This document shows positions 396 to 63,022 of a stretch of 64,000 nt of DNA, one piece after another. The position numbers and the translations under genes are program-made. The DNA comes from Nannobrachium achirus (taxonomy: Eukaryota > Chordata > Actinopteri > Myctophiformes > Myctophidae), in NCBI GenBank assembly GCA_963921795.1, contig OY997653.1, positions 2,775,999 through 2,839,998 of the forward strand, given 5' to 3'. Under the pieces are notes generated by a model that worked only from the letters and a program-made list of their open reading frames with translations, was not told where the DNA came from and searched no databases. Position 1 is the first letter of the stretch, and every line of letters starts with the position of its first letter.

Positions 396-740
396 CAGGG
401 ACGTGAAGAGAATGTTAGAGAGGCAGGGGCTGACATTTCTAAAGGGGCCTTTTGGTGAAAACATCGAAAATAGCCGACCTCCAAGCTCACAACGCGTCAA
501 GGCTTGGTTTTTTACACATTTCTTGATTTCAACATAAGATGCTGCGTTCAAGTTCAGGAGAGTTTGGACAAGGCAATTCTCTTGAACGCTGCCTTCTGGT
601 ATGGCATCGAAAGAGGGCATTTGCATTTCTTTCACCATAGTAAAAACTGCATTCATGTTCTGGAGAGAGGGCACTTTTTACAGATGGATAAAAGGGCAGG
701 GGCTCAAGCCCCCTTTGATGTCTATGTGTGCACATGCCTG
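396..740. mobile_element. hAT-like MITE (CAGGSACGTG family), half hairpin
   Basis: The left end CAGGGACGTG and right end CACATGCCTG are inverted repeats. Flanking 8-mers GCGACTCA and GTGCCTCA agree at 6 of 8 bases. Inside, 463-498 is one arm only of the dispersed palindrome (variant CCTCCAAGCTC). Sister copies at 25465-25669 and 29824-30256 have perfect 8-bp target duplications. The 741-957 gap beyond it shows nothing recognisable. Confidence 0.7.
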
Positions 741-957
741 GTGCCTCAGTAATCTAGGATCATAGGTAAACCAAGAATGTATAGACTACCTCTCATAAAT
801 CTATCCTTCTGTTAATGACATCCCTCTTCTGGTTATACATTTTTGCCATCAATGGGGATATTTTTTATTCCTATTTCTGGTCAGACTGAAAGCATTTCTG
901 AAATGTAGACTCTGATATTGACTGATTGACGACTGGATTATGTTTCAACGTCCCTGG

Positions 958-1515
958 CAGGGGCGTCACAAGGGGTAGGAAAGTGGGACTGAGTTACCAG
1001 GGCCCAAGGTGGTGGAGGGGCCTTAATTATGTTATACTTTAGCTATTGAAAAATAGCAGATATACAAGCTCACAGCGCGGCACCGAGTGCCGCGCTGCGA
1101 GCTTGTAGATCTGCTATTTTTGAAAAGTCGTGAAAATGTGTGCAAATCTTTGAATATATGTATTTTTTTAAGCGAACATTTGTAACTCAAATTTTGCTTG
1201 CGGTGGGGTCCCTGGAACTAAATATTTTGAGATGGGGGTCTGTGGCCAAATTCATACCATTTTGGGGGTCCTTCACATGAAAAGGTTTGAGCTCCACTGA
1301 CATAGAAACATAGGTTTTTCAAAAAACCTCAGAAGGATTTGAAATATTCAAAGATTTTCATTGTTTTTCTAAAAATAGCAGATCTACAAGCTCGCAGCGC
1401 GGCACTCGGTGCCGCACTGTGAGCTTGTATATCTGCTATTTTTCAATAGTTAAAGCACAAGGGCCCCGCAGTGAATCCTTGTACCCGGGGCCCAGAATGT
1501 GGTGCGACACCCCTG
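958..1515. mobile_element. hAT-like foldback element with two hairpins (CAGGGGYGTC family)
   Basis: It starts CAGGGGCGTCAC and ends GCGACACCCCTG, flanked on both sides by the 8-bp direct repeat GTCCCTGG (950-957 and 1516-1523), the hAT signature. No transposase frame is present. Two copies of the dispersed palindrome lie at about 1047-1124 and 1371-1444, reverse complements of one another, so the element is a long inverted repeat that itself contains hairpins. Relatives: 3738-4214, 6066-6340 and 62495-63022. Positions 1524-1796 show nothing recognisable. Confidence 0.88.
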
Positions 1516-1818
1516 GTCCCTGGTGTGACTCCAGATGGGCTCTGTGTAAAAAAATAATAAAATAAATGACATTGTAAAGTAAACACTCAGTTCAGTTGTG
1601 TTTGACCAATTACCAGAATCCCTTTTGCAGTTGTCACCCAGTGTCCCCCTGTCAACACTACTCAAGCAGGCCAGTATCTCTGACACCATCAGACAGAGTC
1701 ACCCTCACTTAGGCTCTGACAAGAGACAATTGTTGTGAGGAACTGAACTGTCCACGTTGTAAATAGAACACTGTGAGGTACAAATAAAGGCACTGTCAGT
1801 GGTGTGAAGTAACTAACA

Positions 1819-2336
1819 GGGTTCCCACGGTCATGAAATTCCTGGAAATATTTTGAAATTAGACAAATATTTTTCCAGTAGTCGAAACATTTTGAAATTG
1901 ATCAAGGGTGCTGGAAGGTCCTGAAAAAAATGTATACCTCTGAAATGACAAATTAAACATTGGCCAAATTGTCAATTATTAGAGGGAGAAAGTGAAAATA
2001 GCCGATCTACATGCTCACAACGCCTCGCATGCAACGCGAGGCGTTGTGAGCATGTAGATCTGCTATTTTCACAATAAAACCGTGTTATACAAAATTCCTC
2101 AACACTTAGTGCTCGTCAGGGTGCCAGGGTTCCCAGTTCAAATATGATTATTTCGGGGGTCATGGCCTGAAAAGGTTGAGAACCACTGGCATACACTACC
2201 TGTCTTTGGGCATTGCGCATAGGACTCGTTATTGAGTTGAATTATTGTTATATAGTCTTGTAAATTGTGTTAAATATTCTGGAAAAGTTTTGGAAAAGTT
2301 TTGGAAATTAATTGGTAAAAATGTGTGGGAACCCTG
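1819..2336. mobile_element. hAT-like element with GGGTTCCCAC ends, nested
   Basis: Inverted ends GGGTTCCCAC and GTGGGAACCCTG are flanked by the 8-bp direct repeat AACTAACA (1811-1818 and 2337-2344). It sits inside the element starting at 1797 and is itself interrupted by a fragment of the CAGTGGTTCTCAACC family at about 1934-2188, giving three levels of nesting. Confidence 0.78.
1934..2188. mobile_element. hAT-like fragment (CAGTGGTTCTCAACC family) with intact hairpin
   Basis: Only the right part is present, ending GGTTGAGAACCACTG. It carries an 81-bp near-perfect dispersed palindrome at 1992-2072 with the family-specific variant CTACATGCTCAC / GTGAGCATGTAG in both arms. Fuller relatives are at 7426-8551 and 10796-11680. 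Confidence 0.72.
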
Positions 2337-2365
2337 AACTAACACATACATTTACTTTTTGAGTT

Positions 2366-2554
2366 AGGGTGCCCACACACCAAAATAGGCCTACCTATGA
2401 TTGTGGAATCTGCGTTCCGCCAATGCATTTCAATGAGAATTGAGCATTTTTTTGCAGAAATCCTCTACTGGCATGAAACCGCTCCATTCTCATTGAAATG
2501 AATTGGCGGAATGCGGATTCCACTCTCATAGGTACTTTGGTGTGTGGGCACCCT
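2366..2554. mobile_element. Small foldback MITE (AGGGTGCCCACACACC ends)
   Basis: A perfect 19-bp terminal inverted repeat, AGGGTGCCCACACACCAAA, extends imperfectly to arms of roughly 65 bp. No convincing target duplication flanks it. A partial relative is at about 8690-8765, again inside a CAGTGGTGTAAAGTAAC element. Confidence 0.65.
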
Positions 2555-2921
2555 TATTTGTTCTTTACTTGAGTATTTCCTATTTCCAATGTTGTACTTT
2601 TACTCCACTACATTTATTTGATAACTGTAGTTACTAGTTACTTTGTAGATTTGGATTATTATTGCAAGACATACATGATACATTAACCACTTCAACCTAT
2701 TTATATTTCTGCTATTTGAAAATAGACGATCTACAAGCTCACAATAGATCTACTATTTTCAAAAAATGTGTACACATTTCAAAACTTGAAATGGGACACT
2801 ACATAATGAGTTTTTGTACTTTGAGTAATTTTTTTTAGATACCAATACATTTGTACTCTTACTCCAGTCCATTTTGAATTCTGGACGTTGTAACAGAGTA
2901 TTTCTACATTGCGGTATTGAT

Positions 2922-3446
2922 AAGGGGTGTAACGATATAGTAACTGAATCGAAAAATCGATTTTAATTTGCAATGATCTACTATATTGTTTACAAAAGTA
3001 AAATATCGTACCGTTTAGGCTTTGTATCGTATCGTTGTAAAAATGCGGTAATCTGTATCGAATCGTTTTGCAATGCGAATAATTGATTGTATGGAAGTAT
3101 TTGTGCCTTGTATTTAGCAATTTTAAGAGGGAAAATGAAAAATTACCTTTCCATGCCATATAGCTATTCTTGGTCTATTGATAAATGTGTGTAATCTCTG
3201 TGTTCATGTCAAGGTGGGTTCGTCCATATGTGTTGAAATATAATGTCCATATATTTGCTAGATAATCACAGCGTTTACTTCCATAATAATAGATTTTTTA
3301 CACGTTTTACACAGATTTAATTTCTTTGCTAAATAGTTACTAAATCGATTTTAAATCATTGAATCGAATCGTATCGTGAACCAATATTGTCCATGTATCG
3401 TATCGTTAACCATGTATCATGATGCCCATGTATCGTTACACCCCTA
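2922..3446. mobile_element. hAT-like element (AAGGGGTGTAACGATA ends), nested
   Basis: The ends AAGGGGTGTAACGATA and TATCGTTACACCCCT are inverted repeats, and the 8-bp direct repeat GTATTGAT flanks the element (2914-2921 and 3447-3454). The interior repeats ATCGTATCGT-like motifs and has no transposase frame. It lies inside the element starting at 1797. The next stretch, 3497-3737, has only a short GGAGGGTGGA tandem tract. Confidence 0.85.
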
Positions 3447-3737
3447 GTATTGATACTTTTACTTTAGTAAAAAATACTTTAGTTTTCCCACCACTGTTTG
3501 AAGGAAGAATGGAGGAAGGTTGGAGGTTGAAGGAGGGTGGAGGAGGGTGGAGGAGGGTGGCTGCCTCTCCCCATTGGAACAGCTGTCCCTCAGACAGCAA
3601 CAGATGCAATGACACAGAGGGTGGAGAGGTCGTCTACAGACCCCTGCATCTATTTCCCCTCACAAGTAACTGCTTTTATCTGGATGTTTTTGCCTTTTCA
3701 GCTTAAATTGTACCCATTCGGGCCAAGAATTATTGAA

Positions 3738-4214
3738 TGCTTTAACCAGTGAAAAATAGCAGATATACAAGGGTCTAGATCTGCTATTTTTGAAAAAGTC
3801 GTGAAAATGTGTGCAAATCTTTGAATATATGTATTTTCAAAGCAAACGTTTGTAACTCAAATTTTGCTTCTTTTGAGATGGGGGTCCGTGGCCAAATACA
3901 TATCATTTTGGGGGTCCTTCACATGAAAAGGTTTGAGAACCACTGACATAGTAGTCTCTCAAGAACAGACTAACTAAGCTCCAGTTAAGTGAAAAAGACC
4001 TTTTCTTTGATGATGGCTGGCCAGATTGCTGACATAGAAACATATGTTTTTCAAAAAAACCTTAGAAGGATTCAAAAGACACTTATAGAATCAGGTCAAA
4101 ATACTCATTTTCACGATTTTTCAAAAAATAGCAGATCTACAAGCTCGCAGCGTGGCACTCGGTGCCGCGCTGTGAGCTTGTATATCTGCTATTTTTCAAT
4201 AGTTAAAGCATAAA
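3738..4214. mobile_element. CAGGGGYGTC-family element lacking both outer ends
   Basis: This matches the interior of 958-1515, from the sequence just outside the left hairpin to just outside the right one. Hairpins are at about 3751-3792 (loop deleted) and 4123-4196 (intact). About 86 extra bases near 3945-4030 sit between two copies of CTGACATAG, suggesting a small insertion or duplication. Positions 4215-4526 show nothing recognisable. Confidence 0.7.
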
Positions 4215-4526
4215 ATAATGACACACAATGTAGTGTATACCCGTTCTGAATGGGATAAATATGGCTGAAAGGAAATAAAGCTTTATTATGCAACAGTTTT
4301 CCACAGTTAATAAAAGTTGTGAGGGTGACGCAGGAGTAACGTTCCTGAAAACCACAAAGGAGACTGGGGTTTTGAATCCTCCACGGTGCGTGTACATGCT
4401 CTCAAATAAGCTCAAATGGGCCGTGAAGAGAAGTGTCTGGCAACAACGTCACGTGTGTCAGAGGAGACACATGTTCGTCTACACCGTCCATAAGACCAAG
4501 CAGTAGGGGTCAGCAGTGACAGGGAC

Positions 4527-4816
4527 CAGGGACATGCTGGGCCCCTGATTCAGCCCGCGGGAAAAAGAGTTGGAGAGGCCCTCATTGCTCTCTATAGAGA
4601 GAGATCTCTCTCTATAGCGCTGCTGCTACTTTGCCATTTCAGATCATGACAAGTGACAAGCCAGTGGGCCAATTACATGAGTTATATTTTGTCGTTGTCG
4701 GGTGGAAACCTTGTATGTCCAAAACCGTTTGTTTTGTATTTATCATTTTAAAAATGATTTAAACTAGTGAAAACAGCCGATCTACAAGCACACAACGCCT
4801 CGCGGTGCGAGGCGAC
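4527..4816. mobile_element. hAT-like element (CAGGGACNTGCTGG family), reverse copy cut within its hairpin
   Basis: It begins CAGGGACATGCTGGG, carries the GA/TC 28-mer-type palindrome near 4591-4618, and follows the sister copy at 12854-13418 in reverse until about 4816. There it stops inside the dispersed palindrome, after GCCTCGCGGTGCGAGGCG. The breakpoint at the hairpin tip suggests a hairpin-associated break. Confidence 0.7.
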
Positions 4817-4893
4817 CACATGGGTGAGTGGTGAATGGAAGATAGAGGAAAATAAAGGCATACAAACTTAATGGGAAAAGAGAGAGAGATTAA

Positions 4894-5488
4894 AGGGATA
4901 TTTCACTTTCAAAAAACCTTTTTGTCATTTTATCGTCTAATCAGGCTTTTATGAACAGACTGAACAGTTTTAAATTTGCTTGACTCGATATTTAGATATT
5001 TGATGTAAATGTTACCAGGCCCTCCTCCTCTAGGGCCCCTCCCCATACACACCCATTGTAACTCCAAACTCCATTTTAACCATGATAGATTCATTAAAAA
5101 CACAATTTATTTTTCTAGTGACTCATACTACCCTCCTAATATGTGAGCAGGCCGTGGTTTTTTTATAACCTTTTTCATTAATTTTTTATAAATTCTTTTG
5201 GGGGGAAAAAAATACAATAAAAAATAAAGGAAAAAAAGTTATAAAAAAACACGGCCTGCTCACGTATTAGGAGGTATTATGAGTCACCAGGAAAGATAAT
5301 GGGTGTTTTTAATGAATCTGTCATGGTTAAAATGGAGTTTGAAGTTACAATGGGTGTGTATGGGGCCCTCCTCCAGGACGCCCCCAGGAAATATTGAATC
5401 AAGCAAATTAAAAACTTTCCAGGGTGTTCATAAAAGCCTGATTAGATGATAAAATGACTAAAGTTTTTTTTTAAAGTGAAATATCCCT
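4894..5488. mobile_element. TTAA-flanked foldback MITE (piggyBac-like)
   Basis: The ends AGGGATATTTCACTTT and their perfect complement are flanked by TTAA at 4890-4893 and 5489-5492. Almost the whole element is one inverted repeat of about 270 bp per arm around an AT-rich centre near 5160-5230. TTAA duplications point to a piggyBac-type transposase supplied elsewhere; there is no coding capacity. Confidence 0.82.
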
Positions 5489-5492
5489 TTAA

Positions 5493-5622
5493 CCCATTTA
5501 GGCCTAACCTATAGTTAGGCCCACATCAGAAATTAGCCTACAAAAACAAATATGTTGATACATACTGTACATGTACTGTAAGCCCCTCCCATACACTAAA
5601 ATGTGTACCCGGCCTGAATGGG
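5493..5622. mobile_element. Second TTAA MITE abutting the first
   Basis: The ends CCCATTTAGGCC and GGCCTGAATGGG are inverted. The left TTAA (5489-5492) is the same one that closes the preceding foldback; on the right TAAA (5623-5626) stands where TTAA is expected. The CCC...GGG termini next to TTAA fit piggyBac-like elements. Positions 5623-6065 show nothing recognisable. Confidence 0.65.
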
Positions 5623-6340: not shown

Positions 6341-6344
6341 TGCG

Positions 6345-6988: not shown

Positions 6989-7051
<63 letters not shown>

Positions 7052-7417: not shown

Positions 7418-7456
7418 CTCTACAGCACTGGTTCTCAACTGTTTTTAATTTATTGG

Positions 7457-7844
7457 AAGGGCTGTCACAATTATTACATAATTGAATCGTGATTATTTGA
7501 CATTATCGCAATTATTTTGTCATAATCGTCATAATCGTGAATGTTGAAAAATGTCAGAAATAGTGGAAATAGCAGATCTACAAGCTCACAACGCGTCGCA
7601 TCGCGACGCATTGTGAGCTTGTAGATCGGCTATTTCCACTATCAATGTTATTTTTTAAGTAGTAAGTTGTCAAATATGTCAGTAATGTATTTGTATATTA
7701 AGGTTATGTGTCATATTATCTACCATATGCAACTTCAAAACCTAAAAGCCAAACAGAAATGTAATTATCAACGACAAATACACAATTAAAACGTTAATCG
7801 CCAATTATTATCGTCATGTAAAATGTCATATCGTGACAGCCCTA
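7457..7844. mobile_element. hAT-like element (AAGGGCTGTCAC ends) with intact hairpin
   Basis: The ends AAGGGCTGTCAC and GTGACAGCCCTA are flanked by the perfect 8-bp repeat TTTATTGG (7449-7456 and 7845-7852). The interior is rich in AATCGTGATTAT motifs. An 83-bp dispersed palindrome lies at 7560-7642; its symmetry extends into element-specific flanks ATAGTGGAAATAGC / GCTATTTCCACTAT. Confidence 0.87.
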
Positions 7845-7852
7845 TTTATTGG

Positions 7853-7969
7853 TGTCTTCTCTGCAACTGTAGATTATTATATTTTTATTGTGTATCTGTA
7901 AAGCACTCTGTGCATTCGTGCTGTGAAGAGGTATATAAATACAGTATATAAATAAAGTTCATTCATTCA
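7853..7969 (+). mobile_element. Retroposon 3'-end fragment with ATTC-repeat tail
   Basis: Contains CTGTGAAGAGGTATATAAAT and AATAAAGTTCATTCATTC, a typical fish retroposon 3' end with a short tandem tail. It lies inside the hAT element starting at 7426 and is split from its upstream part by the nested hAT at 7457-7844. Confidence 0.5.
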
Positions 7970-8178
7970 ACCTGTGGGTCGGGACCCCCAGGCGGGTCCC
8001 CAACTTATTTAGGGGGGTCCCCAGATGATTAGCTTAATGTAGAACACTGTTTTTTAACTCAAATGTAAACAAAACCAACATAAAGTTTAAGTGTATAGAG
8101 GGTATATGCACATTTCTAAAAGACAGAAATTGTGATAATAGCCAATCTACATGCTCACAACACAAGGCGTGAGCATGT

Positions 8179-8428
8179 AAATGGTGCATTTATATAGCGC
8201 TTTTCATAGATTGTGCATTGCATTCACCCATTCACGCACACATTCATACACCGGTGGTGGAGGAAACCATGCAAGGTACCAACCTACTCACCGGGAGCAA
8301 CTAGGGGTTCAGAGTCTTGCTCAAGGACTCTTCCACATTAATTCAGGGGGAGCCCGGATTCGAACTGGGAACCCTTCGGGAACCCTTTGTGCTCTAATAA
8401 CGGTTTCTCTACCCCTGAGCTATGCCGT
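8179..8428 (-). mobile_element. SINE inserted in a hairpin arm
   Basis: On the minus strand it has GGTTCGAATCC-like B-box sequence (seen on + as GGATTCGAACTGGG at about 8355), GGGTGAATG(CAATG), and the tail AAGCGCTATATAAATGCACC. Relatives are at 14521-14845 and 30775-31000. It interrupts the right arm of the host element's palindrome, which resumes with GTAGATCTGCTG. Confidence 0.65.
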
Positions 8429-8624
8429 AGATCTGCTGTTCACAATAGAACCGTCTTATACAACATGTAATGGCTCAACTCTTAGTGCTCGTCAGTATAT
8501 GATAATATGATTATTTTGGGGGTCACGGCCTGAAAAGGTTGAGAACCACTGCTCTACAGTTGGCCAGTCCGTCCCCCAACACTCATACCTGCTAACAGTG
8601 TAGCCTACTATCATCTCTACTGAC

Positions 8625-10795: not shown

Positions 10796-11680
10796 CAGTG
10801 GTTCTCAACCTGTGGGTCAGGACCCCCAGGGGGGTCCCCGAATTATTTTGGGGGGTCCGCAGATGATTAACTTAATGAGAAACATTGTTCTCACTCAACA
10901 GTAAACAAACCAACATCAAGTTTAAGTGTATAGAGCAAGGGTGGGCAACTTTGATGATGGAGAGGGCCACTACATTTTCACACTCACTCTAGAGGGCCAC
11001 AATGCATATACATAGCAAAAATAGCCGATCTACAAGCTCAAAACGCGTCGCAGTGCGACGCGTTTTGAGCTTGTAGATCTGCTATTTTTGAATTGGAATC
11101 CTGAAAAGTAACTTTATTTTTTCTTCTTTTTTTAAATTCCAAATGCATTTATATCTTCTTATATTAACTGTATGAACTTAAATACAAATACATTCGACAT
11201 AAAAAATACACTAACATTTCAACACATTTAGCTACTAATATCAGTCTATATTATAGACTGAAGTAATTAAAGCGGTTCATTTTTCCATGTTTGGAATTGT
11301 AACAGCTGAAATCAATAATATCAGTATTCCAATATCAACTTGCGGGCCGCATTAAGTGAAGGTGGGGGCCGCATGTGGCCCCCGGGCCGCCAGTTGCCCA
11401 TGTATGGTATAGAGGGTATATCTGCACATTTCTAAAGTGACAATTTAAGGCCTTTTTAATTCCTCTAAAATGACAAATTAAACATTGGCCAAATTGTCAT
11501 AATTAGAGGCAGAAATTGTGAAAATAGCAGATCTACATGCTCACAATGCCTGTAGATCGGCTATTTTCACAATAGAACCGTGTTATACAAAATGTAATTC
11601 CTCAATTCTTAGTGCTCGTCAGGGTGGGGGGTCCCCAGTATGATTATATGGGGGGTCGCAGCCTGAAAAGAGAACCACTG
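10796..11680. mobile_element. hAT-like element (CAGTGGTTCTCAACC family), near complete
   Basis: The ends CAGTGGTTCTCAACC and GAGAACCACTG are flanked by CTATAGGC and CTATAGGA (7 of 8 match). It contains a nested hAT at 10936-11406 and its own shortened palindrome at 11515-11573 with the CTACATGCTCAC variant. The pre-insertion sequence survives nearby: 11885-11970 repeats the flank (GGTTGCTACAGGCAACACAC) without the element. Confidence 0.86.
10936..11406. mobile_element. hAT-like element (CAAGGGTGGGCAACT ends) with intact hairpin
   Basis: The left end CAAGGGTGGGCAACT and right end AGTTGCCCATGTATG are flanked by the perfect 8-bp repeat GTATAGAG (10928-10935 and 11407-11414). A 75-bp palindrome at 11016-11090 carries a paired change: CTCAAAACGCG in one arm and CGCGTTTTGAG in the other, where most families have CTCACAACGCG. 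The GGGCCGCATGTGGCCCCCGG near the right end is typical of this kind of fish hAT MITE. Confidence 0.87.
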
Positions 11681-12348: not shown

Positions 12349-12659
12349 CAGTGGTTCTCAACCTATGGGTCATGACCCCCAGGCGGTCCACAAATTATTT
12401 GGGGGGCAACGGTAAACAAACCAACATAAAGTTTAAGTGTAGAGGGAATATGCACATTTCTAAAGTGACAATTTAAGGACTTTTTAATACCTCTAAAAGG
12501 TCAAATTAAATATTAGCCAAATTGTCAAATATTAGAGGCAGAGAACTGTCTTATACAAAATGTAATGCCTCAACTCTTAGTGCTCATAAGGGTGGGGGGG
12601 TCCCCAGTTAAAATATGATTATTTTGGGGGTCGCTGCCTGAAAAGGTGGAGAACCACTG
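12349..12659. mobile_element. hAT-like element (CAGTGGTTCTCAACC family) without hairpin
   Basis: The ends CAGTGGTTCTCAACC and GGAGAACCACTG are present, but the flanking 8-mers are inverted complements (CATTAGTG before, CACTAATG after) rather than a direct repeat. The family palindrome is absent: the sequence passes from ATTAGAGGCAGAG to AACTGTCTTATAC with no stem. Useful as a hairpin-less comparison. Confidence 0.8.
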
Positions 12660-12853: not shown

Positions 12854-13418
12854 CAGGGACGTGCTGGCCACTGGGAAAAGCGGGACAACTCCCGAACGGC
12901 CGGTTCATTCCCGGCCGGTCCAGGCCGGCCATTAGGAAAACATTAAAAATAAAATGTCGGCCTTCGTTCCATTTTGGGGGCTGGACGGCCAACAAAGTAA
13001 ATCGTCACTGTCGGGCAGAAACCTCGTATCTCCAAGTTTCAAATGTATACATTTTTTCGCAAAGCAAAGCCCTGCTTCATCATACAAGGCCGTCGTACAA
13101 AAGTAGTGAAAACAGCAGATCTACAAGCGGTGCGAGGCGTTGTGTGCTTGTAGATCGGCTGTTTTCACTAGTTTAAATAATTTTTAAAATGATAAATACA
13201 AAACAAACGGTTTTGGACATGCAAGGTTTTCACCCGACAACAACGAAATATAAATCATGTACAGTAATTGGCCCACTGGCTTGTCACTTGTCATGATCTG
13301 AAATGGCAAATCTTTGAGTAGCAGCAGCACTATAGAGAGAGATCTCTCTCTATAGCGTGCAATGGGGGCCTCTCCAACTCTTTTTCCCGGGCTGAATCAG
13401 GGGCCCAGCATGTCCCTG
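12854..13418. mobile_element. hAT-like element (CAGGGACNTGCTGG family), complete
   Basis: The ends CAGGGACGTGCTGG and CAGCATGTCCCTG are flanked by the perfect 8-bp repeat CAAAGTAG (12846-12853 and 13419-13426). The dispersed palindrome at 13104-13170 has lost part of its left arm but keeps the family's paired change AGTGAAAACAGC / GCTGTTTTCACT. The 28-bp GA/TC palindrome is near 13329-13356. Relatives: 1-174 and 4527-4816. Confidence 0.88.
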
Positions 13419-14923: not shown

Positions 14924-15681
14924 AGCGAGATCATTTAGCGACCTACAACCGGGTCGCGACGTGGTCGGTAGTTTTCAGCGACCGGGTCGCTAAATCGAGC
15001 GACCGGGTCGCTAAATCGAGCGACCGGGTCGCTAAATCACCGACCGCGCTGCTAAATCGACCGACCCGGTCGCTAAATCTACCGACCTGCCTGCAGTTTT
15101 AGGTCGGTAGATTTAGCGACCCGGTTGGTACATCTAGTGACCCGGTCGGAAGATTCTGCACCCCAGTCGGTCGATTCAGCGACCCGGTCGCTCGCTTTAG
15201 CGGCGCGGTCGGTGATTTAGCGACGCGGTCGGTGATTTAGCGACCCGGTCGGGAGGTTGCGTGGCAGGTTAGCCTAACTGAGGTAAGGTTACTGAGGTTA
15301 GGTTTAGGGTTAGGGTTAGGGTTAGGGTTAGGGTTAGGGTTAGTAGCCCGGTGGTCGGTGGAAGCAACCACCGGTCGGTGGATTTACCTACCCGGTCGCT
15401 GGATTAGCGTCCCGTTCGGTGGAATTAGCGTCCCGGTCGGTGGAATTAGCGACCCGGTCAGTGGTTTTAGCGTCCCGGTCGGTGGTTTTAGCGTCCCGGT
15501 CGGTCGATTTAGCGACCCGGTCGGTGTTTTAGCGTCCCGGTCGGTGGTTTTAGCATCCCGGTTGGTGGTTCTAGCGTCCCTGTCGGTGGTTTTACCGTCC
15601 CAGTTGGTCGATTTAGCGACCCGGTCGCTGAAAACTACCGACCACGTCGCGACCCGGTTGTAGGTCGCTAAATGATCTCGC
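14924..15681. repeat. GC-rich inverted minisatellite with telomere-like core
   Basis: The outer arms are near-perfect inverted repeats of at least 70 bp, beginning GCGAGATCATTTAGCGACC and ending in the complement. Between them are roughly 21-bp units built on AGCGACCCGGTCG; units read one way up to about 15095 and the other way after it. A (TTAGGG)n-type tract of about seven units lies at 15299-15342. The 101-residue open frame at 15358-15663 is repeat translation, not a gene. No target duplication seen. Confidence 0.8.
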
Positions 15682-23771: not shown

Positions 23772-23940
23772 GTAAATCCTGCTTTAAACTTCTACAAGAT
23801 GACATGTTGTCAGCTTGTAGATGAAATTGTTTGACAAATTCTGCCAATAACGGCATGCCCTAAATAGAGAGCCTAAAATGTTCATTGTCGGTATTGGCCA
23901 AGAATGAGTGTGTTTATCATCTCCATCCCCCAGTACATAG
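22100..23940. other. Mostly unassigned, ends in (TATC)n retroposon tail
   Basis: Positions 23698-23770 read CTCTGTGGGATAATAAAGG then (TATC)n, the same 3' tail as at 35010-35048, so a retroposon end is likely there. The rest is not recognised; it is comparatively free of repeats. Confidence 0.4.
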
Positions 23941-25464: not shown

Positions 25465-25669
25465 CAGGCACGTGCACACATTTTTACTATGGTGAAGCTA
25501 ATGCAAATGCCCTCAATCAAGCCTCGAAAATAGACGACCTCCAAGCTCACAACGCGTCGCAGCGCGACACGTTCTGAGCTTGGAGGTCTGCTATTTTCGA
25601 TGTTTTCACCAAAAAGGCCCTTTTAGAAATTTCAGCCCCTGCCTCTCTAACATTCTCTGCACGTCCCTG
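25465..25669. mobile_element. hAT-like MITE (CAGGSACGTG family) with intact hairpin
   Basis: The ends CAGGCACGTGCA and TGCACGTCCCTG are flanked by the perfect 8-bp repeat ATCCTCAT (25457-25464 and 25670-25677). The palindrome at about 25524-25600 has the family-specific CCTCCAAGCTC / GAGCTTGGAGG variant in both arms. At 205 bp this is the shortest complete copy. Confidence 0.9.
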
Positions 25670-28675: not shown

Positions 28676-28992
28676 CAGTGGTTCTCAACCTTTTCAGGCT
28701 GCGACCTCCAAATAATCATATTTTAACTGAGAGTGATCTACAAGCCGAGAGTGATCTACAAGCTCACAAAGGTTGCATCTGCGACGTGACGTGAGCTTGT
28801 ATGTCTGCTGTTAACCGGAAGTGTCCCGCAAATAATGCTACAGTAAATTCTCGCGGAAACAGGTTTGGTATTCTGGTTTGTTTACTGTTGAGTGAGAAAA
28901 CAATGTTGCACATCAAGTTAATCATCTGGGGACCCCCCAAAATAATTTGGGGACCCCCCTGGGGGTCCCGACCCACACGTTGAGAACCACTG
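28676..28992. mobile_element. hAT-like element (CAGTGGTTCTCAACC family), reverse, with chimaeric centre
   Basis: The ends CAGTGGTTCTCAACC and GAGAACCACTG are flanked by GGCTTTAT and GGCTATAT (7 of 8). The centre, about 28735-28862, carries a variant hairpin (GTGATCTACAAGCTCAC...GTGAGCTTGTATGTC) followed by AACCGGAAGTGTCCCGC; this block is shared with 35345-35465, outside any such element. Confidence 0.8.
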
Positions 28993-29823: not shown

Positions 29824-30256
29824 CAGACACGTGCACACATAGACATCGAAGGGGATTGAGCCACTTCCCTTTTATCTGTCTGTAAAAAGGTGTCCTCTCC
29901 AGACCATGAATGCAGTTTTTACTATGGTGAAAGAAATGCAAATGCCGCTCATTCCATGCCATACCTGAAGGCAGCATTCATGAGAATTGCCTTGTCCAAA
30001 CTATCCTGAAATTGAATGCAGCATCTTATGTTGAAAGAATTGCCCTCACTGTTTAGAAATCCATGCCGTTATGCCACATCTCCAGTATTGCCTTTTTTAT
30101 GATTAGTTTAGTGTGTTATCAAGTATTGAAAATAGCCAACCTCCAAGCTCACAACGCGTCGCAGAGCTTGGAGGTCTACTATTTTCGATATTTTCACCAA
30201 AGGGCCCTTTTAGGAATTTCAGCCCCTGCCTCTCTAATATTCTCTGCACGTCCCTG
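29824..30256. mobile_element. hAT-like element (CAGGSACGTG family)
   Basis: The ends CAGACACGTGCA and TGCACGTCCCTG are flanked by the perfect 8-bp repeat GAGTTCTT (29816-29823 and 30257-30264). The palindrome at about 30126-30189 keeps CCTCCAAGCTC / GAGCTTGGAGG in both arms, though its centre is shortened. The sequence otherwise tracks 396-740 in reverse. Confidence 0.9.
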
Positions 30257-33419: not shown

Positions 33420-33879
33420 CAGGGGTCTTCAACGTTTTCAGGCCAAGGACCCCTTAGTTGAGAGAGAGAGATGAAGCAGGGACCCCCTGCACAACCTGTT
33501 CATAGATTCCATATAGTTTCATCGTTTGACAGCACAATCATCAGTGTATTTTGGATTCATGTCAATTTGTGTTTTCAGATATTTAACCACTTGAGGCATC
33601 ATAACCTAATACATTTGACCTTTCACGCTGTACTTAGTCTGCTCTTTTTCCCCTCTAAACCAAATCTCGTTGCCAAGCATAGCAGATCTACAAGCTCACA
33701 ACGCCTCGCAGCGCAAGGCGCTGTGAGCTTGTAGATCGGCTATTTTTGGCAACAGGTCTCAGAATATGGACACTAGGGTTCAAGTTGTTAATATCAAAAG
33801 GACTGAAAAATTTGGAGGACCCCCTGTAGTAACTCTGAGGACCCCCTTGGGGTCCCGGAGCCCCTGTTGAAGACCCTTG
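33420..33879. mobile_element. hAT-like element (CAGGGGTCTTCAAC family)
   Basis: The ends CAGGGGTCTTCAACG and GTTGAAGACCCTTG are flanked by the perfect 8-bp repeat TTTTAGGA (33412-33419 and 33880-33887). The 85-bp palindrome at 33669-33753 extends symmetrically into the element (GTTGCCAA / TTGGCAAC), whereas the sister copy at 54056-54507 has TTAGCC / GGCTAA at the same place. Confidence 0.92.
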
Positions 33880-39246: not shown

Positions 39247-39586
39247 ACACACTCACATGCGCGCGCACACACGGTAGGTGGGCACCAAAATGGACTGGAA
39301 AACTGAAATGGTTAAGGATTAATTCACTGAATACTTCATTCTTCAACTGTGTTCCTCAACTAAAATGACAGCTGTTCACCTCAAAATCTGTTATTTCCAG
39401 TGTGGTGGGACTCACTTCAAATTTCACTTTGATCCTACTGTATTATCCTGTAATGAGTTATCTCTCCTGACTAGATAACATTTATATCCAAATGTCTGGA
39501 AAATATATGTTCTGTTTACTAAAAAGCTGTAGAGACCCCTACTGAACAAACATAATAGAGCTATTTAAAACTAACTTTAAAGGGAT
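38161..39586. other. Unassigned stretch with CA microsatellite
   Basis: (CA)n with CGCA interruptions at about 39205-39270. A 132-codon open frame at 38247-38645 has no family signature and no supporting splice context. Confidence 0.4.
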
Positions 39587-39590
39587 CCCT

Positions 39591-40068
39591 GGCTAATACG
39601 ACAAATATGCCTTAATACATTATAATTGTCCTCTATAATTACAATGTAAAATTAAAAACACCTCAATTATTTTATTTCTTCTAGAAATAGCTAATCTTTC
39701 ACTGAATAGGGGAAATGCCCGTCGCAAGTTGATGATGTCATAAATGTCATGTGTGATCTATCCCTATGGAATTTATGGCATGCATGTGAAAATAAAAACA
39801 AATGTAATACTTCCTATGGTTAATATGACCATCAAATCAATATTTAAAATGATTTTTTTGCACATGCATGCCATAAGTTCCATAGGGATAGACCACACAT
39901 GACATTTATGACATCATCAACTTGCGACAGGCATTTCCCCTATTGAGTGAAAGATTTGCTATTTCTAGAAGAAATGAAATATTTAATGTGTTTTTAATTT
40001 TACATTGTAGTTATAGAGGACAATTATAATGTATTAAGGCATATTTGTCGTATTAGCCAGGGATCCTT
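39591..40068. mobile_element. TTAA-flanked foldback MITE (AGGGATCCCTGG ends)
   Basis: TTAA at 39587-39590 and 40069-40072. The ends AGGGATCCCTGGCTAATACG and their near-perfect complement continue as arms of about 210 bp around a roughly 60-bp centre (CCTATGGTTAATATGACC). Fits a piggyBac-type non-autonomous element; no coding. Confidence 0.85.
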
Positions 40069-40072
40069 TTAA

Positions 40073-41260: not shown

Positions 41261-41525
41261 TGCCCTGTGTCACCATGAAGCTCTTCAACCCTCATATTCA
41301 CCACTACAAACACATCCATGTCCTGGGTCACCATGAAGCTCTTCAACCCTCATATTCACCAATACAAACACATCCATGCCCTGGGTCATCAAAGCTCTTC
41401 AACTCTCATATTCACCACTACAAACACATCCATGTCCTGGGTCACCATGAAACTCTTCAACCCTCATATTCACCAATACAAACACATCCATGCCCTGGGT
41501 CACCCAAGCTCTTCAACCCTCGTAT
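41261..41525 (+). repeat. 58-bp minisatellite, about 4.5 units
   Basis: Units contain CTGGGTCACCATGAAGCTC and TTCACCA(C/A)TACAAACACATC. Two unit types alternate (ending CACTAC or CAATAC, beginning TGCC or TGTC), so the array grew as dimers. The His/Pro-rich 176-codon open frame here is a repeat translation. Confidence 0.85.
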
Positions 41526-41526
41526 G

Positions 41527-41762
41527 TCATTAATATACCTTAGAGGAGTTGTGTGGAAATAGAAACAAAGTTCCCCCCCTTCTGTGTTGCCTAGAACTGG
41601 AAGATTGATTTTGGTGTTTGTATTGTAAAGTACAATGTGTGATGTCATCAAGTTGTACTTTACAATACAAACCCCAAAATCAATCCTCCAGTTCTAGGCA
41701 ACACAGAAGGGGGGGAACTTTTTTTCTATTTCCACACAACTCCTCTAAGGTATATTAATGAC
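41527..41762. mobile_element. Near-perfect 236-bp foldback
   Basis: Arms of about 105 bp begin GTCATTAATATACCTTAGAG and end with the complement, around a centre with GTGTGATGTCATCAAG. It directly abuts the minisatellite. No flanking duplication can be read because the flanks join the inverted repeat. Confidence 0.8.
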
Positions 41763-41898
41763 ACAGTTCAATATTGAAAATGGGTGGTCTTTCCCTTTAA
41801 TAACCACATGAACCCTAACATCCCTATTCATGTTAGATAGGCCTTACTAACCACATGAACCCATGAACCCAACATCCCTATTCAGGGCATATTATAGC

Positions 41899-42669
41899 CA
41901 GTGGTAGAAAAGATACTCAAATCCTTTACTTAAAGGTCCGCTGACACGCCCCAAAAAAATAGTATGATACAGTAGGTCAACAGTAGGTCACGTGGTCTCT
42001 CTGAAAACAGTCTGAAACAGTCTGAAACTCATGTCACAGTGTACTCTGCCCCTCGCCCCCCAACAACAGCTGACCAGTACAGTAAGTAGTCTAAGTACAT
42101 TCAATTAATTTGATTGGCTTATAATTGCGCATTCCCACAATGACATCATAAAAATATAAGTTAATATTTTAAGATTACTTTTTAAAGTGACAGTACCCCT
42201 TTAGGTGACAGTTAAGTAAAAGTATCAATAACACAATGTAGAAATACTCCGATACAAGTAAAAGTCCGGAGTTCCACATTTATACTCGAGTAAAAGTACA
42301 AACGTATTGGCATCAAAAAGTTTACAATTTTCAAGTCTTTTGAAATTAGCTGATCTACAAACTCACAATGTGTCACGATGTGACGCATTGTGAGCTTGTA
42401 GATCGACTATTTCCAAATGGCCGAAATGTATAGGGTTGAAGTGGTTAATGTAATAATGTTTTGTAATAATAATCAATCTACAAACTAACTATAACTGAAG
42501 TTTTCAAATAAATGTAGTGGAGTAAAAGTACAATATTTGGATCAGAGATGTAATGAGTCAAAGCAAAAGTATTGGAAATTGGAAATACTCTCAAGTAAAG
42601 AACAAATACCTAAACATTGTACTTTAATAGTAGGCCTACAGCACTATGTAAATGTACTTTACACCAATG
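41899..42669. mobile_element. hAT-like element (CAGTGGTGTAAAGTAAC family), degraded ends
   Basis: The ends CAGTGGTAGAAAAGATAC and TACTTTACACCAATG; interior AAGTAAAAGTAC sequence as in 8625-9408. A TTAA element is nested at 41934-42200, and a 79-bp dispersed palindrome with paired variant CACAATGTGTC / GACGCATTGTG lies at 42339-42417. Confidence 0.7.
41934..42200. mobile_element. TTAA-type MITE, nested
   Basis: TTAA at 41930-41933 on the left and TTAG at 42201-42204 on the right. The ends AGGTCCGCTGACAC and GTGACAGTACCCCT are imperfect inverted repeats. Confidence 0.5.
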
Positions 42670-48569: not shown

Positions 48570-48665
48570 GTGTCTCGCACTGAAAATAGCAGATTCATAA
48601 GCTCACAACATGTCGCGGTGCAACGCGTTGTGAGCATGTAGATCTGCTATTTTCGGTGTGAGACA
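48570..48665. repeat. Dispersed palindrome, longest copy (96 bp)
   Basis: Arms run TGTCTCGCACTGAAAATAGC...GCTATTTTCGGTGTGAGACA, so the symmetry extends about 14 bp beyond the core on each side into sequence not found at other copies. The host is uncertain; GCCTGATTTATACTTGG just upstream resembles a DNA-transposon end. Confidence 0.75.
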
Positions 48666-52850: not shown

Positions 52851-52852
52851 CA

Positions 52853-54047: not shown

Positions 54048-54055
54048 TTCTAAAG

Positions 54056-54507
54056 CAGGGGTCTTCCACGTTTTCAGGCCGAGGACCCCTTAGTTGAGAG
54101 AGAGATGAAGCAGGGACCCCCACAACCTGTTCATAGATTCCATATAGTTTCATTGTTTGACAGCACAATCATCAGTGTATTTTGGATTTGTGTCAATTTG
54201 TGTTTTCAGATATTTAACTTGAACCGTCAATACTTAATAAACTTGAACTTTCACTCTGTACTTAGTCTGCTCTTTTTCTCCTCTACACCAAACCTCTTAG
54301 CCGAAAATAGCCGATCTACAAGCTCACAACGCCTCGCAGCGCGAGGCGTTGTGAGCTTGTAGATCGGCTATTTTTGGCTAAAGTTCGCAGAATAGGGTAC
54401 AGGGTACAAGTGCTTAAAATAAAATAAAGTCACACAGATTTGGAGGACCCCCTGTAGTAACTCTGAGGACCCCCTAGGGGTCCAGGACCCCCTGTTGTAG
54501 ACCCCTG
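54056..54507. mobile_element. hAT-like element (CAGGGGTCTTCAAC family) with best-preserved hairpin
   Basis: The ends CAGGGGTCTTCCACG and GTTGTAGACCCCTG are flanked by the perfect 8-bp repeat TTCTAAAG (54048-54055 and 54508-54515). The palindrome at 54297-54381 is almost perfectly paired over 85 bp: TTAGCCGAAAATAGCCGATC to GATCGGCTATTTTTGGCTAA. Confidence 0.93.
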
Positions 54508-56412: not shown

Positions 56413-56478
56413 AGAGGGACTGAATGAGGGCCACAGCAAGGATTCTGAGGGCACTTCTGTTGATAAAAGCGGACATTC

Positions 56479-57052: not shown

Positions 57053-58970
57053 TGCATGTCATAATGGGCCACGGCAAATCAGTTGCAGCGAGAGCTGAAA
57101 CGGTGATTGTTTCAAACTGACCCTAACAAGCTGTCAGCTCGCATTTTACAAAGCATGCATCAGCACTGAGGAGCCTGGCATGCGCTTGGACAGAGCGGAC
57201 AGGTCTTATTCAAGACGGGTGCCTTGCATCCTTGCATGCGTTTGTGTTCCACAGGCTACAGCTATCCTACGTGATTCAATGCATGGTGATTGATGCGACT
57301 GAGTATTTCCCGGTGAACCTAAGCGCAACGGTGGGGGCTTGGGAGTGTGTGTGGAACACGCACCACTGACTATTGCTGATGATGGAGAGGTTATAATATA
57401 GCTAGCCTTTATGTATTGAGAATGAGAGGCACTCTTGCCGATTTAGTAAGAGACTCGTCGCCAATTGCAAGATATTTAAAAGTTATTTGGGGCCATGATG
57501 ATATCCTTTTCTTCCCACAACTAGACTAAGGATTTATATTGTCTGTGTTATTGTTTACAACCACAATTATTCACGTGTGGCAAGATCGCGGTTCACTAGT
57601 TTTTAGTAGGCTGTAGGCTTAGAAGCCTTTTCAGAAGTTAATCTAATGTTTTCCATTTAATGATTTCCTTTATCCTCATCTATTCTTGTGCTAATGCACG
57701 CAACTGTTTTTGGACATGTTTTAAGGCCTAGTAGGCTTTTCAGAAGTTAATTTAATGTTTTCCATTTAATGATTTCCTTCATCGTCATCTTGCGCTAATG
57801 CACGCAACTGTTTTCACCAGGTTTTAAGGTCTTATTTGAGTTGTTTCTCATAAGCTCGCAACCCTCCTTGCCCATCGGCCCACACCTTTGCGCACAGGTT
57901 CACCGGGAAATACGCGGTCGCGTGATTGATTGATGAGCATGGTATCCTGGCTGTGGTTGGTTGGTTCCACTGTCTGGGGAACGCTGTTTTGGTGTGGCAG
58001 TGCTTGATAAAATCTGAAAGAATTTAACCCAACCACGAGGTGTCAACGCGTCAATCTCTTTGATGTCTACGCGTGCCCATCGACGCATTTGACGCGTTGT
58101 ACAGTAAACTATACTGTACTGTAGCTACTGTACGAGGCTACCGCGGTGACGAAAAACACTCCATTTCCCGAAATGCAGCGCGAGATCACGTGACCGGGAA
58201 GTGCTGTCTCCCTCATTCACATCAGTGTTGCTGCTGCACAAATATGCAGTTTTCTCCTAATCTAACTTGTAAATCACCTTCATGTTCAAAACGCCCGATG
58301 TGTTAAATATATGAGAAAACTCACAAGTATGGCCTACTTGTGCGCCAGCAGAGCGTGCAATGAGTTGCGCTCATGACTGGCGATACCAGTGACATCACCA
58401 CTTGGCATCACAAGGAATGCTGGTCCCTCATTGGCTGTTAATGATGACGTTGCCAGAAAACATACCAGTACGCAGCCGAACGCAGTACGCAGCGCACTCT
58501 GCTGTTAACAAAAAGCAGGTTCACTTGCTGGGGGAAAAACAAAGGGGAAAAAAGAAAAACAACTCAGACCTAGTGAACAATAGTCTGTTGCCTATAGCAA
58601 CCACACTATGTAATAGTACATTTTAATAATAATAATAATATATATTTTTAAAGTATTGTATACTGGTATGATTCAATTCAGTTTTTAGGGCATATAATAA
58701 TATAATCGGCATATCATTAGAAATTGTGTGTATTCCCTCAACCGTAACATGGGCGAGACATAATAAATAATTAATACTCACATCCACTATTATAACAAAT
58801 GCGATTCAACAAAAGAAAATGATCAAGTAATTATCGAGTCATTTAGGGTGTATACTGCAATTACCCCATTACATCAGCCCTAGTGCTTTTTCTCTTATCT
58901 TCAGTACCCGAGTCACCACATAGAGGGAGCCGGTGAGCGGTGAGAAATGAACCCGTGGAAATGCTGAATG
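57053..58970. other. Unassigned samd5 upstream region with a tandem duplication
   Basis: About 57622-57730 and 57731-57830 are tandem copies (TTTTCAGAAGTTAAT(C/T)TAATG, TGCTAATGCACGCAACTG). Around 58100-58210 CpG content rises. Nothing else recognised. Confidence 0.45.
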
Positions 58971-58971
58971 A

Positions 58972-59324
<353 letters not shown>

Positions 59325-59492
59325 TGCAACCAGGCTGCTTGTTCGAGGCGTGTGTGACACATTTTGCGCTCTCGTTATCATCGCGCTCTCGCTCTGGTCT
59401 CCCCGATCAACTTCTGTCTGAGAGTCGGAACCGGCGCAGATCATCGTGCGCCCGAGGCTCCGTGACAAGTTGTAAAAAGAGCTGGAGAAGGG

Positions 59493-59493
<1 letters not shown>

Positions 59494-59563
<70 letters not shown>
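59494..59563 (+). repeat. (GA)n tract
   Basis: About 35 uninterrupted GA units, just before the GC-rich putative samd5 leader. Confidence 0.9.
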
Positions 59564-59569
<6 letters not shown>

Positions 59570-59589
59570 AAAAAAAGGAATTCCATCAC

Positions 59590-61025
<1,436 letters not shown>

Positions 61026-61114
61026 TGAACACAGTGTGACACCACGGGCAATTATCATATCCACAGGATAACTTGGTAAAGAATGACCATGCCAAGAATA
61101 CTCAGGTGTATCAT

Positions 61115-61170
61115 TAGCTCTGGTCCATAGCGTTAGTGGAGTTCTCCACTAACGCTATGGACCAGAGCTA
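61115..61170. mobile_element. Perfect 27-bp-stem hairpin between 9-bp direct repeats
   Basis: The arms TAGCTCTGGTCCATAGCG... and complement pair over 27 bp without mismatch around a 2-base loop (TT). GTGTATCAT is present immediately before (61106-61114) and after (61171-61179). It lies 100 bp inside samd5 intron 1. Confidence 0.8.
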
Positions 61171-61225
61171 GTGTATCATATCTGGAAGCCTGGGACCTTC
61201 GTCACCTGTACCAAAAGTCCCACCC

Positions 61226-61523
61226 GGGGACTGCCCATAAGTCCGAAGGTTCATCAGTCCGAATTTAGTTAGGGTTACTGAGGTTAAGGTTAGGGTTAGA
61301 GTTAGGCATAGTATTTTTTTTAAAGATTTGTTTTTGGGTATTTTATGCCTTTATTTGATAGGATATTAGACTGACAGGAATGGGGAGATAGATGGGGAAT
61401 GAGTTGATGTGGCAAAGGTCATCCGGAATCGAACCGGCAACACCAGCAGGCATCATAGCTAAGTATGTGGTATAATGAAACTTCGGACTAATGAACCTTC
61501 GGAACAATGCCATGGTGCCCCCC
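61226..61523. mobile_element. MITE with AGTCCGAA ends, telomere-like core and nested SINE
   Basis: The left CATAAGTCCGAAGGTTCATC and complement of the right (CATTGTTCCGAAGGTTCATT) are inverted. The core TTACTGAGGTTAAGGTTAGG to GTTAGGCATAGT is telomere-like. A tRNA SINE (minus strand, B-box GGTTCGATTCC) fills about 61308-61475. Relative at 21260-21430. Confidence 0.65.
61308..61475 (-). mobile_element. tRNA-derived SINE
   Basis: Minus strand has GCCGGTTCGATTCCGG and, further on, CCTATCAAATAAAGGCAT. Related to 6345-6503. Boundaries approximate. Confidence 0.6.
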
Positions 61524-61877
61524 ACCCATGCATGTCATTCAGTGCATATGAAATATTAACATCCATGTGCATCTGGTGGGAGTATAATAGCCGAGGCAGA
61601 GAGAGGTATAGTATAGTAGGCTACATCTACATACACTGCCCTTATTGGATGCTGCAAGTGTGCAACAGGGCTGTCATGGTGACTGATGCTGCTGCTGCTC
61701 GTCTAGACTTAGAATATGTAGATCAATGATGAGGAGGCAGAGAGGAGAGGAGATGTATTTTTACTTAGGTCTGATTTCCTGATAGATTTACCGATAGATT
61801 ATTAATCACATGAACCCTATCATCCCTACCTTCCGTCCACCCGCCTGGGCATGTCACACTAGGTGAACGTTCTGTGA

Positions 61878-61936
61878 GAATAGCAGATCTACAAGCTTGT
61901 GTTACGATGCGTTGTGAACTTGTTTTTTTTGCTATT
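61878..61936. repeat. Dispersed palindrome, degraded
   Basis: GAATAGCAGATCTACAAGC on the left, TTGTGAACTTG and GCTATTTGATG on the right. The host element is not identified. Confidence 0.6.
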
Positions 61937-61995
61937 TGATGTACAACAAAGTAGTCTCTATTAATCTCGCCTAACCTGTCAGTGGCTTTACCTCA

Positions 61996-62341
61996 TTGGT
62001 TCTCAAAGTGGGGTGCTTGAGGGAGTTCCAGGGGGTCCCCAGCTAAATGATAGTTAGGAACCAAATGGACCCTTATGGGTAGCCTATGTAACAAAATGTA
62101 CCTTGATTTTACAATATGAATTGGGGTCTCAGAGAGAAATACCATTAAATGGGGGTCCGTAGCCTAATGATGCATGTCAAACTGGGGGTCCCTGAAATGA
62201 AAATGGTTGGGAATCACTGCTAGAGCCGTAAGAATCTTCTCTTTCGGGGGTCCCTGGCATATATCTTTTCAAATGGGGCTCTGCGGGCTGATAAGTGTCA
62301 ATTTGGGGGTTGCTCGACATTAAAAAGTTTGAGAACCACTG
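61996..62341. mobile_element. hAT-like fragments with GGTTCTCAAAG / GAGAACCACTG ends
   Basis: ATTGGTTCTCAAAGTGGGG to GGTTGGGAATCACTG (about 61996-62219), then a second stretch ending TTTGAGAACCACTG at 62341. Both carry GGGGGTCC motifs typical of these families. No target duplications found. Confidence 0.5.
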
Positions 62342-62494
62342 CTTTTTAGCTGGGTTCCCCCAGCATGCTGCCAGCGTGGGTGGATCAAGCTGGCGTGCGT
62401 GGCGTGAGCACATCAGGCTGTTAGCTGTGATGAATGGGCAGTGGGCTGTATCGATTGCGAGGGGTCTAAACGAGTGGCCAGCAGGGCTGGCTGT

Positions 62495-63022
62495 CAGGGG
62501 TGTCGCACCAGATTCTGGGCCCTGGGTTCAAGGATTCACTGTTGTGCTTTAACTATTGAAAACTAGCAGATATACAAGCTCACAGCGTGGCACTCGGTGC
62601 CGCGCTGTGAGCTTGTATATCTGCTATTTTTTTTAAATAGCAGATATACTATTTAAATCGTGAAAATGTGTGTCTTTGAAGGTTTTTTGAAAAACCTATG
62701 TTTCTATGTCAGTGGTGCTCAAACCTTTTCATGTGAAGGACCCCCAAAATTATATGTATTTGGCCACGGACGTCCATCTCAAAATATTCAGTTCCAGGGA
62801 CCCCCCAGAAGCAAAATTTCAGTTACTAACGTTCGCTTAAAAAATACATATATTCAAAGATTTGCACACATTTTCACAACTTTTCAAAAATAGCACATCT
62901 ACAAGCTCGCAGTGGTTCACATCTGCTATTTTTCAATAGCTAAAGTATAGAATAATTAAGGCCCCCCCCACCTTGGGCCCTAGTAACTCAGTCCCACTTT
63001 TCCCCCCCTTGTGACGCCACTG
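62495..63022. mobile_element. hAT-like element (CAGGGGYGTC family), complete, in samd5 intron
   Basis: The ends CAGGGGTGTCGC and GTGACGCCACTG are flanked by CTGGCTGT and CTGGCCGT (7 of 8). It is reversed relative to 958-1515. Hairpins at 62557-62632 (fully matched arms, both AGATATACAAGCTCACAG) and about 62886-62937 (decayed). Confidence 0.87.

Follow-up and report, generated by a model that had tools for sequence, protein, structure and literature searches.

Background

The closest precedent for the structure described here comes from Acropora corals, in which six piggyBac-type families of miniature inverted-repeat transposable elements (MITEs), the CMITEs, share an interior of 75 bp whose origin is unknown; in the part of that report available to us, a new element is described as formed by CMITE insertion, and the core is suggested to aid transposition (Wang et al. 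2010, PMC2872659). The structure in question is a short, near-perfect palindrome, referred to below as the hairpin, which lies inside short transposons of several families in the fish Nannobrachium achirus and was noticed in a stretch of 64,000 nucleotides (the window; contig OY997653.1, positions 2,775,999 to 2,839,998, or C16:2775999-2839998 of the 1.6585-Gb, 564-contig assembly). In transposon classification, the ends are taken to define families and the interiors to follow; here, the interior is the common piece. A central core common to families with different ends is familiar from the CORE-SINEs, which are retrotransposons and whose core is not palindromic. Tol2, a fish hAT element, has an internal hairpin, a matter of one element and about 300 bp; to our knowledge, the internal inverted repeats of Tol2 are not known as common to several families.

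A first-pass annotation of the window considered the palindrome to be either a mobile module that enters other transposons or a functional part retained while the rest diverged. We argue below that, fairly probably, a varied group of short non-coding transposons carries it as their conserved centre, and that nested insertion, followed by hitch-hiking, accounts for its spread. In at least one case, its carrier was a mobile module, which jumped into a hAT-type element and was from then on copied with that host.

Structure and abundance of the hairpin

The conserved core is a near-perfect palindrome of 73 bp with 36-bp arms and a 3-nt loop. An arm profile built from 118 seed arms (the window plus 28 loci) found 159 arms scoring at least 10 bits in 288 kb, and the reversed sequence contained none; at a threshold of at least 9 bits, the window contains 32 hairpin loci, 18 of which have both arms. 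The existence of the palindrome, as reported by the first-pass annotation, is borne out by 30 of its 32 coordinates, which fall at most 40 bp from a hairpin locus found by the profile; the other two, 47429 and 51146, were judged by eye to be degenerate remnants only, and its list lacks two half copies, at 23801 and 31131. The size given there, 70-95 bp, holds for the core together with variable inverted extensions, the conserved core itself being 73 bp. This exact length is found in 36 of the 58 paired copies (near-duplicate loci L001-L004 counted in), and the palindrome often exceeds it via host-specific inverted extensions of variable length, such as the one of 12 bp at the core 48582..48654 (positions are those of the window; hosts and cores are given without strand). 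Core identity between family representatives is 0.70-0.95, or 0.59-0.66 when the variant of family I is compared with the others, and the core L015:1172 is the closest or near-closest to every other representative core. An exact 20-mer of the core, searched in viral contigs, gave no match.

The hairpin is extremely abundant: throughout the assembly, the arm 19-mer AAAATAGCNGATCTACAAG has 296,046 + 295,729 = 591,775 matches with at most one mismatch, against 0 + 1 for its reversed control. Density was taken from 20 loci at 8 Mb on C1-C20 and four elsewhere, 10 kb each (231,220 non-N bases), loci L001-L008 being excluded as products of the arm search. These 24 fixed-position loci contain 74 hairpin loci, 38 of them two-armed, with at least one hairpin in 17 of the 24, which amounts to approximately one whole or half hairpin per 3.1 kb, or about 0.32 loci per kb. 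With its 32 hairpin loci in 64 kb, the window is moderately rich; it is an ordinary place for hairpins, not a local cluster. One sampled locus, L009, apparently consists mostly of long tandem repeat units, and the profile listed no hairpin in it.

Insertion of a hairpin-bearing module into a host transposon

The most informative carrier is module A, a MITE-like element of 243 bp at 13003..13245 on the - strand, with ends CGTCGTTGTCGGG.../...CCCGACAGTGACG, a central hairpin (13108..13166, shortened to 59 bp) and a 4-bp duplication ATTT, which on the + strand reads AAAT at 12999-13002 and 13246-13249. It is nested in the hAT-type host A1 (CAGGGACGTGCTGG; 12854..13418), which has an 8-bp duplication of its own, CAAAGTAG. 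A second copy in the window, 4690..4801 on the + strand, is a left half with half a hairpin. When the window and eight loci were searched for both ends, eight complete copies of 205-258 bp were found at six distinct sites (nine rows, one copy being read in both directions). The two sides match as terminal inverted repeats: between the two flanks of the hairpin L019:4436, 33 of 37 columns are identical, with none of 500 shuffles as good, and the homology between copies ends at CGTCG.../...GTGACG. In six of the eight copies, the 4 bp adjoining one end recur unchanged at the other, as ATTT in the A1 copies (three) and as ATAT at a further three sites; in the remaining two copies, one letter of the four differs. 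Judged by the letters of the right flank, the module resides in A1, in A2 (three copies), in A3 (three copies) and at single sites; the A2 host has hAT-type ends and a duplication GTCTAGAC.

If module A entered A1, copies of A1 joined without it should exist. The predicted module-free site CATGAGTTATATTTACTTTGTTGGCC has 149 + 132 = 281 matches with at most three mismatches, versus 0 and 0 for the control, and the two of these 281 that were read, L036 and L037, are A1 elements without module A. Taken together, these data are strong evidence that module A inserted into the hAT-type A1. Among the best 100 of the 281 empty junctions, 98 have the variant GTGGGCC, while the three filled A1 copies that were read have GTTGGCC or ATTGGCC, never GTGGGCC; hence, the module-free junctions look like a separately amplified subfamily.

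Family F and the hairpin-less junctions

It might be supposed that the bare hairpin, at 73-95 bp, is itself a mobile fold-back unit, which enters any transposon and duplicates a few letters on insertion (TTCT for F, ACTA or TA for module A). Host F does read TTCT-[ATTGTG-hairpin-CACAAT]-TTCT, with a palindrome of 85 bp between the TTCT repeats, and the predicted joined, hairpin-less F junction is found three times exactly and 30 times within three mismatches (control 0); one exact locus proves to be a complete F element, the left halves of the remaining two belong to F, and their right parts differ. Similarly, module A without a hairpin, joined at ACTA, is found eight times exactly and 48 times within three mismatches (control 0). 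However, the filled left F junction has 22,916 matches, so that filled junctions outnumber the empty ones by about 760 to 1, and two more hairpin-less F elements, one in the window (12349..12659, junction TTCTCTGCC) and one in L018, have junctions other than the exact empty one. The two hairpin-less module A loci that were read, L038 and L039, seem to be a single locus in duplicate. Of 60 hairpins, 2, both in F, have 4-bp direct repeats immediately adjacent to the palindrome on its outer sides. All these observations agree with deletion across a palindrome, between short repeats. All in all, a bare hairpin that moves by itself appears rather improbable.

Palindromes between short direct repeats are classic deletion sites, and for this reason the rare F empties are best read as losses; more generally, the hairpin-less junctions of F and of module A are best read as deletions between short flanking repeats. 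Insertion of the bare hairpin into F, argued from the TTCT repeats and the three exact empty junctions, was dropped as proof in view of the 22,916 filled junctions and the varied empty ones. A TA duplication for hairpin entry into module A was likewise set aside, the 48 junctions (eight exact) being explicable also by deletion between ACTA repeats, and a G copy in L013 was rejected as hairpin-less since it has kept part of the left arm and is, hence, a deletion. In F, the hairpin is amplified together with its host. The mobile-module alternative of the first-pass annotation is, therefore, sustained for family A, by its own ends, the 4-bp duplication, the six sites and the empty A1 junctions; it is not so sustained for the bare hairpin, in view of the rarity of the empty F junction and its explanation by deletion.

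Co-variation of the arms and conservation of the core

An alignment was made of 32 full-length cores and their 8-bp flanks; four of the 36 were left out, three as near-duplicates and one because it lies at a locus end. In this alignment, 85.8% of the cells pair across the arms, and 153 cells are altered on both arms versus 46 on one arm; the shuffled both-sides mean is 70.8 +/- 7.0, with 0 of 500 shuffles reaching 153, a result that is no probability inasmuch as the shuffles ignore relatedness. Slid controls give 34-53 two-sided changes. Symmetric extensions of at least 4 bp are present in 50% of 60 hairpins (near-duplicates counted in) versus 5% of 5000 random anchors. Furthermore, in family D, the commoner pair TTTGCC/GGCTAA is changed to TTAGCC/GGCTAA in the sister copy 54303 and to GTTGCC/GGCAAC in the sister copy 33675. 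The two-sided changes, the symmetric extensions and these sister variants are the marks of arm-to-arm conversion, by which, to judge from the alignment, the strong arm co-variation seems best explained. There is one exception, core position 10 (the N of AGCNGATC), which pairs in 49% of the copies, most of its neighbours doing so in about 85-95%; this position is a standing mismatch that arm conversion leaves in place.

Conservation could also be ascribed to function, the hairpin being a cis part, such as a mobility enhancer or an RNA hairpin, which several lineages acquired and selection has kept. Such retention is suggested by the identity of the core within families A, B and F (0.91-0.96 versus 0.63-0.87 in the flanks), a comparison that is biased, however, in that the copies were retrieved via the core itself; family D shows no clear excess, with 0.875 for the core versus 0.896 and 0.799 for the flanks. 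Folding is strong in one copy, at -51.4 kcal/mol when treated as DNA (z -14.3), and the copies number in the hundreds of thousands. On the other hand, the preponderance of two-sided over one-sided changes is what conversion at the DNA level predicts, hairpin-less F copies exist, and a scan of the window against Rfam at the gathering score gave no match, on account of which a known RNA family was dropped as the identity of the hairpin. We regard retention by selection as unlikely.

Host elements and the relatedness of the carriers

The first-pass annotation placed the palindrome in at least nine unrelated hAT-like families. Individual reading of the window indeed yielded nine hairpin-enclosing elements with inverted ends and 8-bp duplications; these nine represent seven families (A1, B, D twice, F, G twice, H and I), two of which, F and I, have common ends and hairpins in mid-element, so that the hosts cannot all be called unrelated. 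The 8-bp duplication and the short ends of the CA...TG type that characterize hAT elements are found in these nine hosts, save that H begins with AA, not CA, and that the target duplication agrees at only 7 of 8 letters in the F copy at 10796 and in I.

Specifically, host B (CAGGGGCGTC; 958..1515, target duplication GTCCCTGG) contains two hairpins in nearly symmetric placement, the 73-bp cores 1049..1121 and 1371..1443, both delimited by the arm profile. Other hairpins of family B, at L019:7693, L013:8155 and window 3752, adjoin TTAACCCATTTAGGCC-type or similar sequence and not CAGGGGCGTC ends, as if two kinds of ends existed for the B interior. Host H (AAGGGCTGTCAC; 7457..7844, duplication TTTATTGG) has its hairpin, 7565-7637, within 56-bp arms at 86%; it lies, together with a half hairpin (8134-8161), inside a tenth element, the F-type 7426..8551 (CACTGGTTCTCAACT, duplication CTCTACAG). 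The F-type host at 10796..11680 (CAGTGGTTCTCAACC) has a hairpin at 11520-11568 and holds a family C element (CAAGGGTGGGCAACT), placed by eye at about 10936-11402, with a hairpin at 11017-11089; host I (also CAGTGGTTCTCAACC; 28676..28992) encloses the variant hairpin 28743-28815. The two copies of host G (CAGGCACGTGCA) are 25465..25669, with duplication ATCCTCAT and hairpin 25526-25598, and 29824..30256, with duplication GAGTTCTT and hairpin 30128-30186. Host D (CAGGGGTCTTCAAC) extends over 33420..33879 (duplication TTTTAGGA, hairpin 33675-33747, extension GTTGCC/GGCAAC) and, as a sister copy, over 54056..54507 (duplication TTCTAAAG, hairpin 54303-54375, extension TTAGCC/GGCTAA). Among the hosts named by the first-pass annotation, C was recognised by its ends; E (CAGTGGTGTAAAGTA), which in the window is represented by the core 42342..42414 with tail GGGTTGAAGTGGTTAA, has a complete copy in L028 with duplication TCTGCTAC; and the limits of the CAGTGGTTCCCAAAC host were not fixed.

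These hosts were taken from individual reading because a scan that sought hosts automatically up to 900 bp away was too loose to serve as a statistic, with hosts at 29 of 101 hairpins versus 36 of 300 control anchors, anchors near hairpins having been skipped yet scored as misses. The flanks are diverse: 172 hairpin sides (four near-duplicate loci and armless sides left out) fall into 25 clusters of at least two and 63 singletons. The hairpin variant tends to track the family, with GCACAC/GTGTGC in most A copies and ACATGC/GCATGT in F copies.

A second, inner module around the hairpin is present in A1 and, apparently, in D. Both D copies of L010 have their hairpin enclosed by TTAACCACTTGAACC...GGTTCAAGTGGTTAA, with TTAACCACTTGAACC and its complement on both sides; a similar TTAA tail occurs in several other loci, including E, mostly at one end among the loci listed. 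By its letters, this TTAA-ended module of D, E and others looked like a piggyBac-type MITE. Its insertion into D was set aside as a candidate after a weak test, in which the predicted empty site was essentially absent.

Some carriers are related beyond the core. Shuffle tests, which cover selected family pairs, show that A and C have a right flank of 36 bp in common, in the same register (equalled by 5 of 500 shuffles), and that D and E have a common tail ending in GTTAA (0 of 500); the likeness between the J and E tails is weaker (1 of 500), and F versus A, with 12 of 500, was not counted as related. Such sharing would leave room for partial descent. It could be proposed, further, that all families descend from one ancestral palindrome-bearing element, the ends and bodies of which diverged past recognition, with the core kept; besides the flanks and tails in common, this fits the common ends and central hairpins of F and I and the core identity of 0.70-0.95 between representatives other than variant I. 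However, module A, whose ends are different and whose duplication is 4 bp long, entered a pre-existing A1; between the left flanks of A and C there is no match (499 of 500 shuffles equally good), and no likeness was detected by shuffling between the flanks of F and B (180 of 500) or of H and A (306 of 500), the only further pairs so compared on this point. Full descent is, in our estimate, quite improbable. The retained-part alternative of the first-pass annotation is sustained in part, gaining from the A/C right flank and the D/E tail and losing on the A/C left flank.

For the hosts in which no inner module was detected, C, G and H, another origin comes to mind: new MITEs might arise by gap repair with filler DNA, the hairpin being caught often merely through its ubiquity. 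At about 0.32 hairpin loci per kb, chance capture within a few hundred bases is plausible. Such capture needs, however, a high copy number beforehand, leaves module A unaccounted for, and does not predict the two near-symmetric hairpins of host B. On the whole, it appears unlikely.

The window has other features as well. The stretch 60483-61028 is open and encodes a SAM domain (Pfam SAM_1, E 1.3e-13), being a likely exon of a cellular gene. Two long inverted repeats, 39577-40072 (220-bp arms at 94%) and 41525-41763 (111-bp arms at 97%), have no noted likeness to the hairpin, and CGACCGGGTCGCTAAATC-like units are densely arrayed in both orientations at 14975-15251.

A proposed path of spread

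The spread of the hairpin through nested insertion and hitch-hiking can be envisaged as follows. In family A, the hairpin forms the midpoint of a small element that has inverted repeats, ends of its own and an AT-rich duplication of 4 bp. This module entered a hAT-type element, as is shown for A1, of which module-free copies exist. Subsequently, as the family sizes imply, the host hATs would have amplified the passenger through their own transposases, so that one hairpin type tends to track one host family. The arms would correct each other by arm-to-arm conversion or template switching, as the two-sided changes suggest; in this way, the hairpin would stay near perfect, families would gain two-sided variants, and the palindrome would grow into host sequence. 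Such correction could wipe out the original junctions, leaving hosts such as C, G and H without a duplication. Finally, hairpins would be lost through deletion between short direct repeats at the base, as the empty junctions of F and module A suggest.

Several observations weigh against this scheme. The confirmed empty site comes from one host only, A1, and L036, one of the two empty copies read, has GTTGGCC, as filled copies do, together with an internal deletion, and could be a loss. In the flanks read for families C, F, G and H, no inner module with separate ends was detected, and there acquisition of the hairpin is inferred. The predicted module-free D site has three matches, all at three mismatches, versus one for the control, which is a weak test because the right flanks beyond TTAA vary among D copies and the junction letters are uncertain. 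To these points should be added the missing core excess in D and the retrieval bias discussed above.

A bolder scheme would make the 73-bp hairpin a selfish core, i.e., a fold-back unit that crosses transposon superfamilies, either by insertion or by copying in hairpin form, is kept perfect by conversion between its arms and raises the mobility of its carriers, with one MITE lineage after another rebuilt around it; we consider this improbable.

With nested insertion and hitch-hiking as the preferred reading, the locus has a bearing on several general problems. One carrier of the common interior has been shown to have jumped into another transposon. A single genome that has the hairpin in hundreds of thousands of copies, and sister lineages both filled and empty, amounts to a natural experiment on how MITEs acquire their interiors, on whether a hairpin promotes or endangers amplification and on the homogenisation of palindrome arms. 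Besides, repeat libraries may group unrelated families through the common core.

Comparison with known systems

Four characteristic sequence strings gave no match in the open-access literature searched, a result that does not extend to print beyond it; the individual families may well be catalogued already in Repbase or Dfam. Among fish elements, gadMor-hAT-1784 of Atlantic cod likewise comprises non-autonomous derivatives of hAT whose interior contains inverted, palindromic repeats, but the elements form two subfamilies of one ancestral family, and the available part of that report describes no cross-family core (PMC12368964). The likeness to the coral CMITEs is closer, by description and not by the letters of the core. 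As far as the accessible text of that paper goes, CMITEs have ends like those of piggyBac and TTAA duplications and reach about 1,600 copies in A. millepora, whereas in N. achirus the core is a near-perfect palindrome, the carriers are 8-bp hAT-type hosts plus a 4-bp module, and the copies number in the hundreds of thousands (PMC2872659). What the two systems have in common, on the same partial account, is the essential arrangement: MITE families whose inverted ends differ but whose interior (75 bp in the CMITEs, 73 bp here) is shared and exceeds the ends in conservation (PMC2872659).

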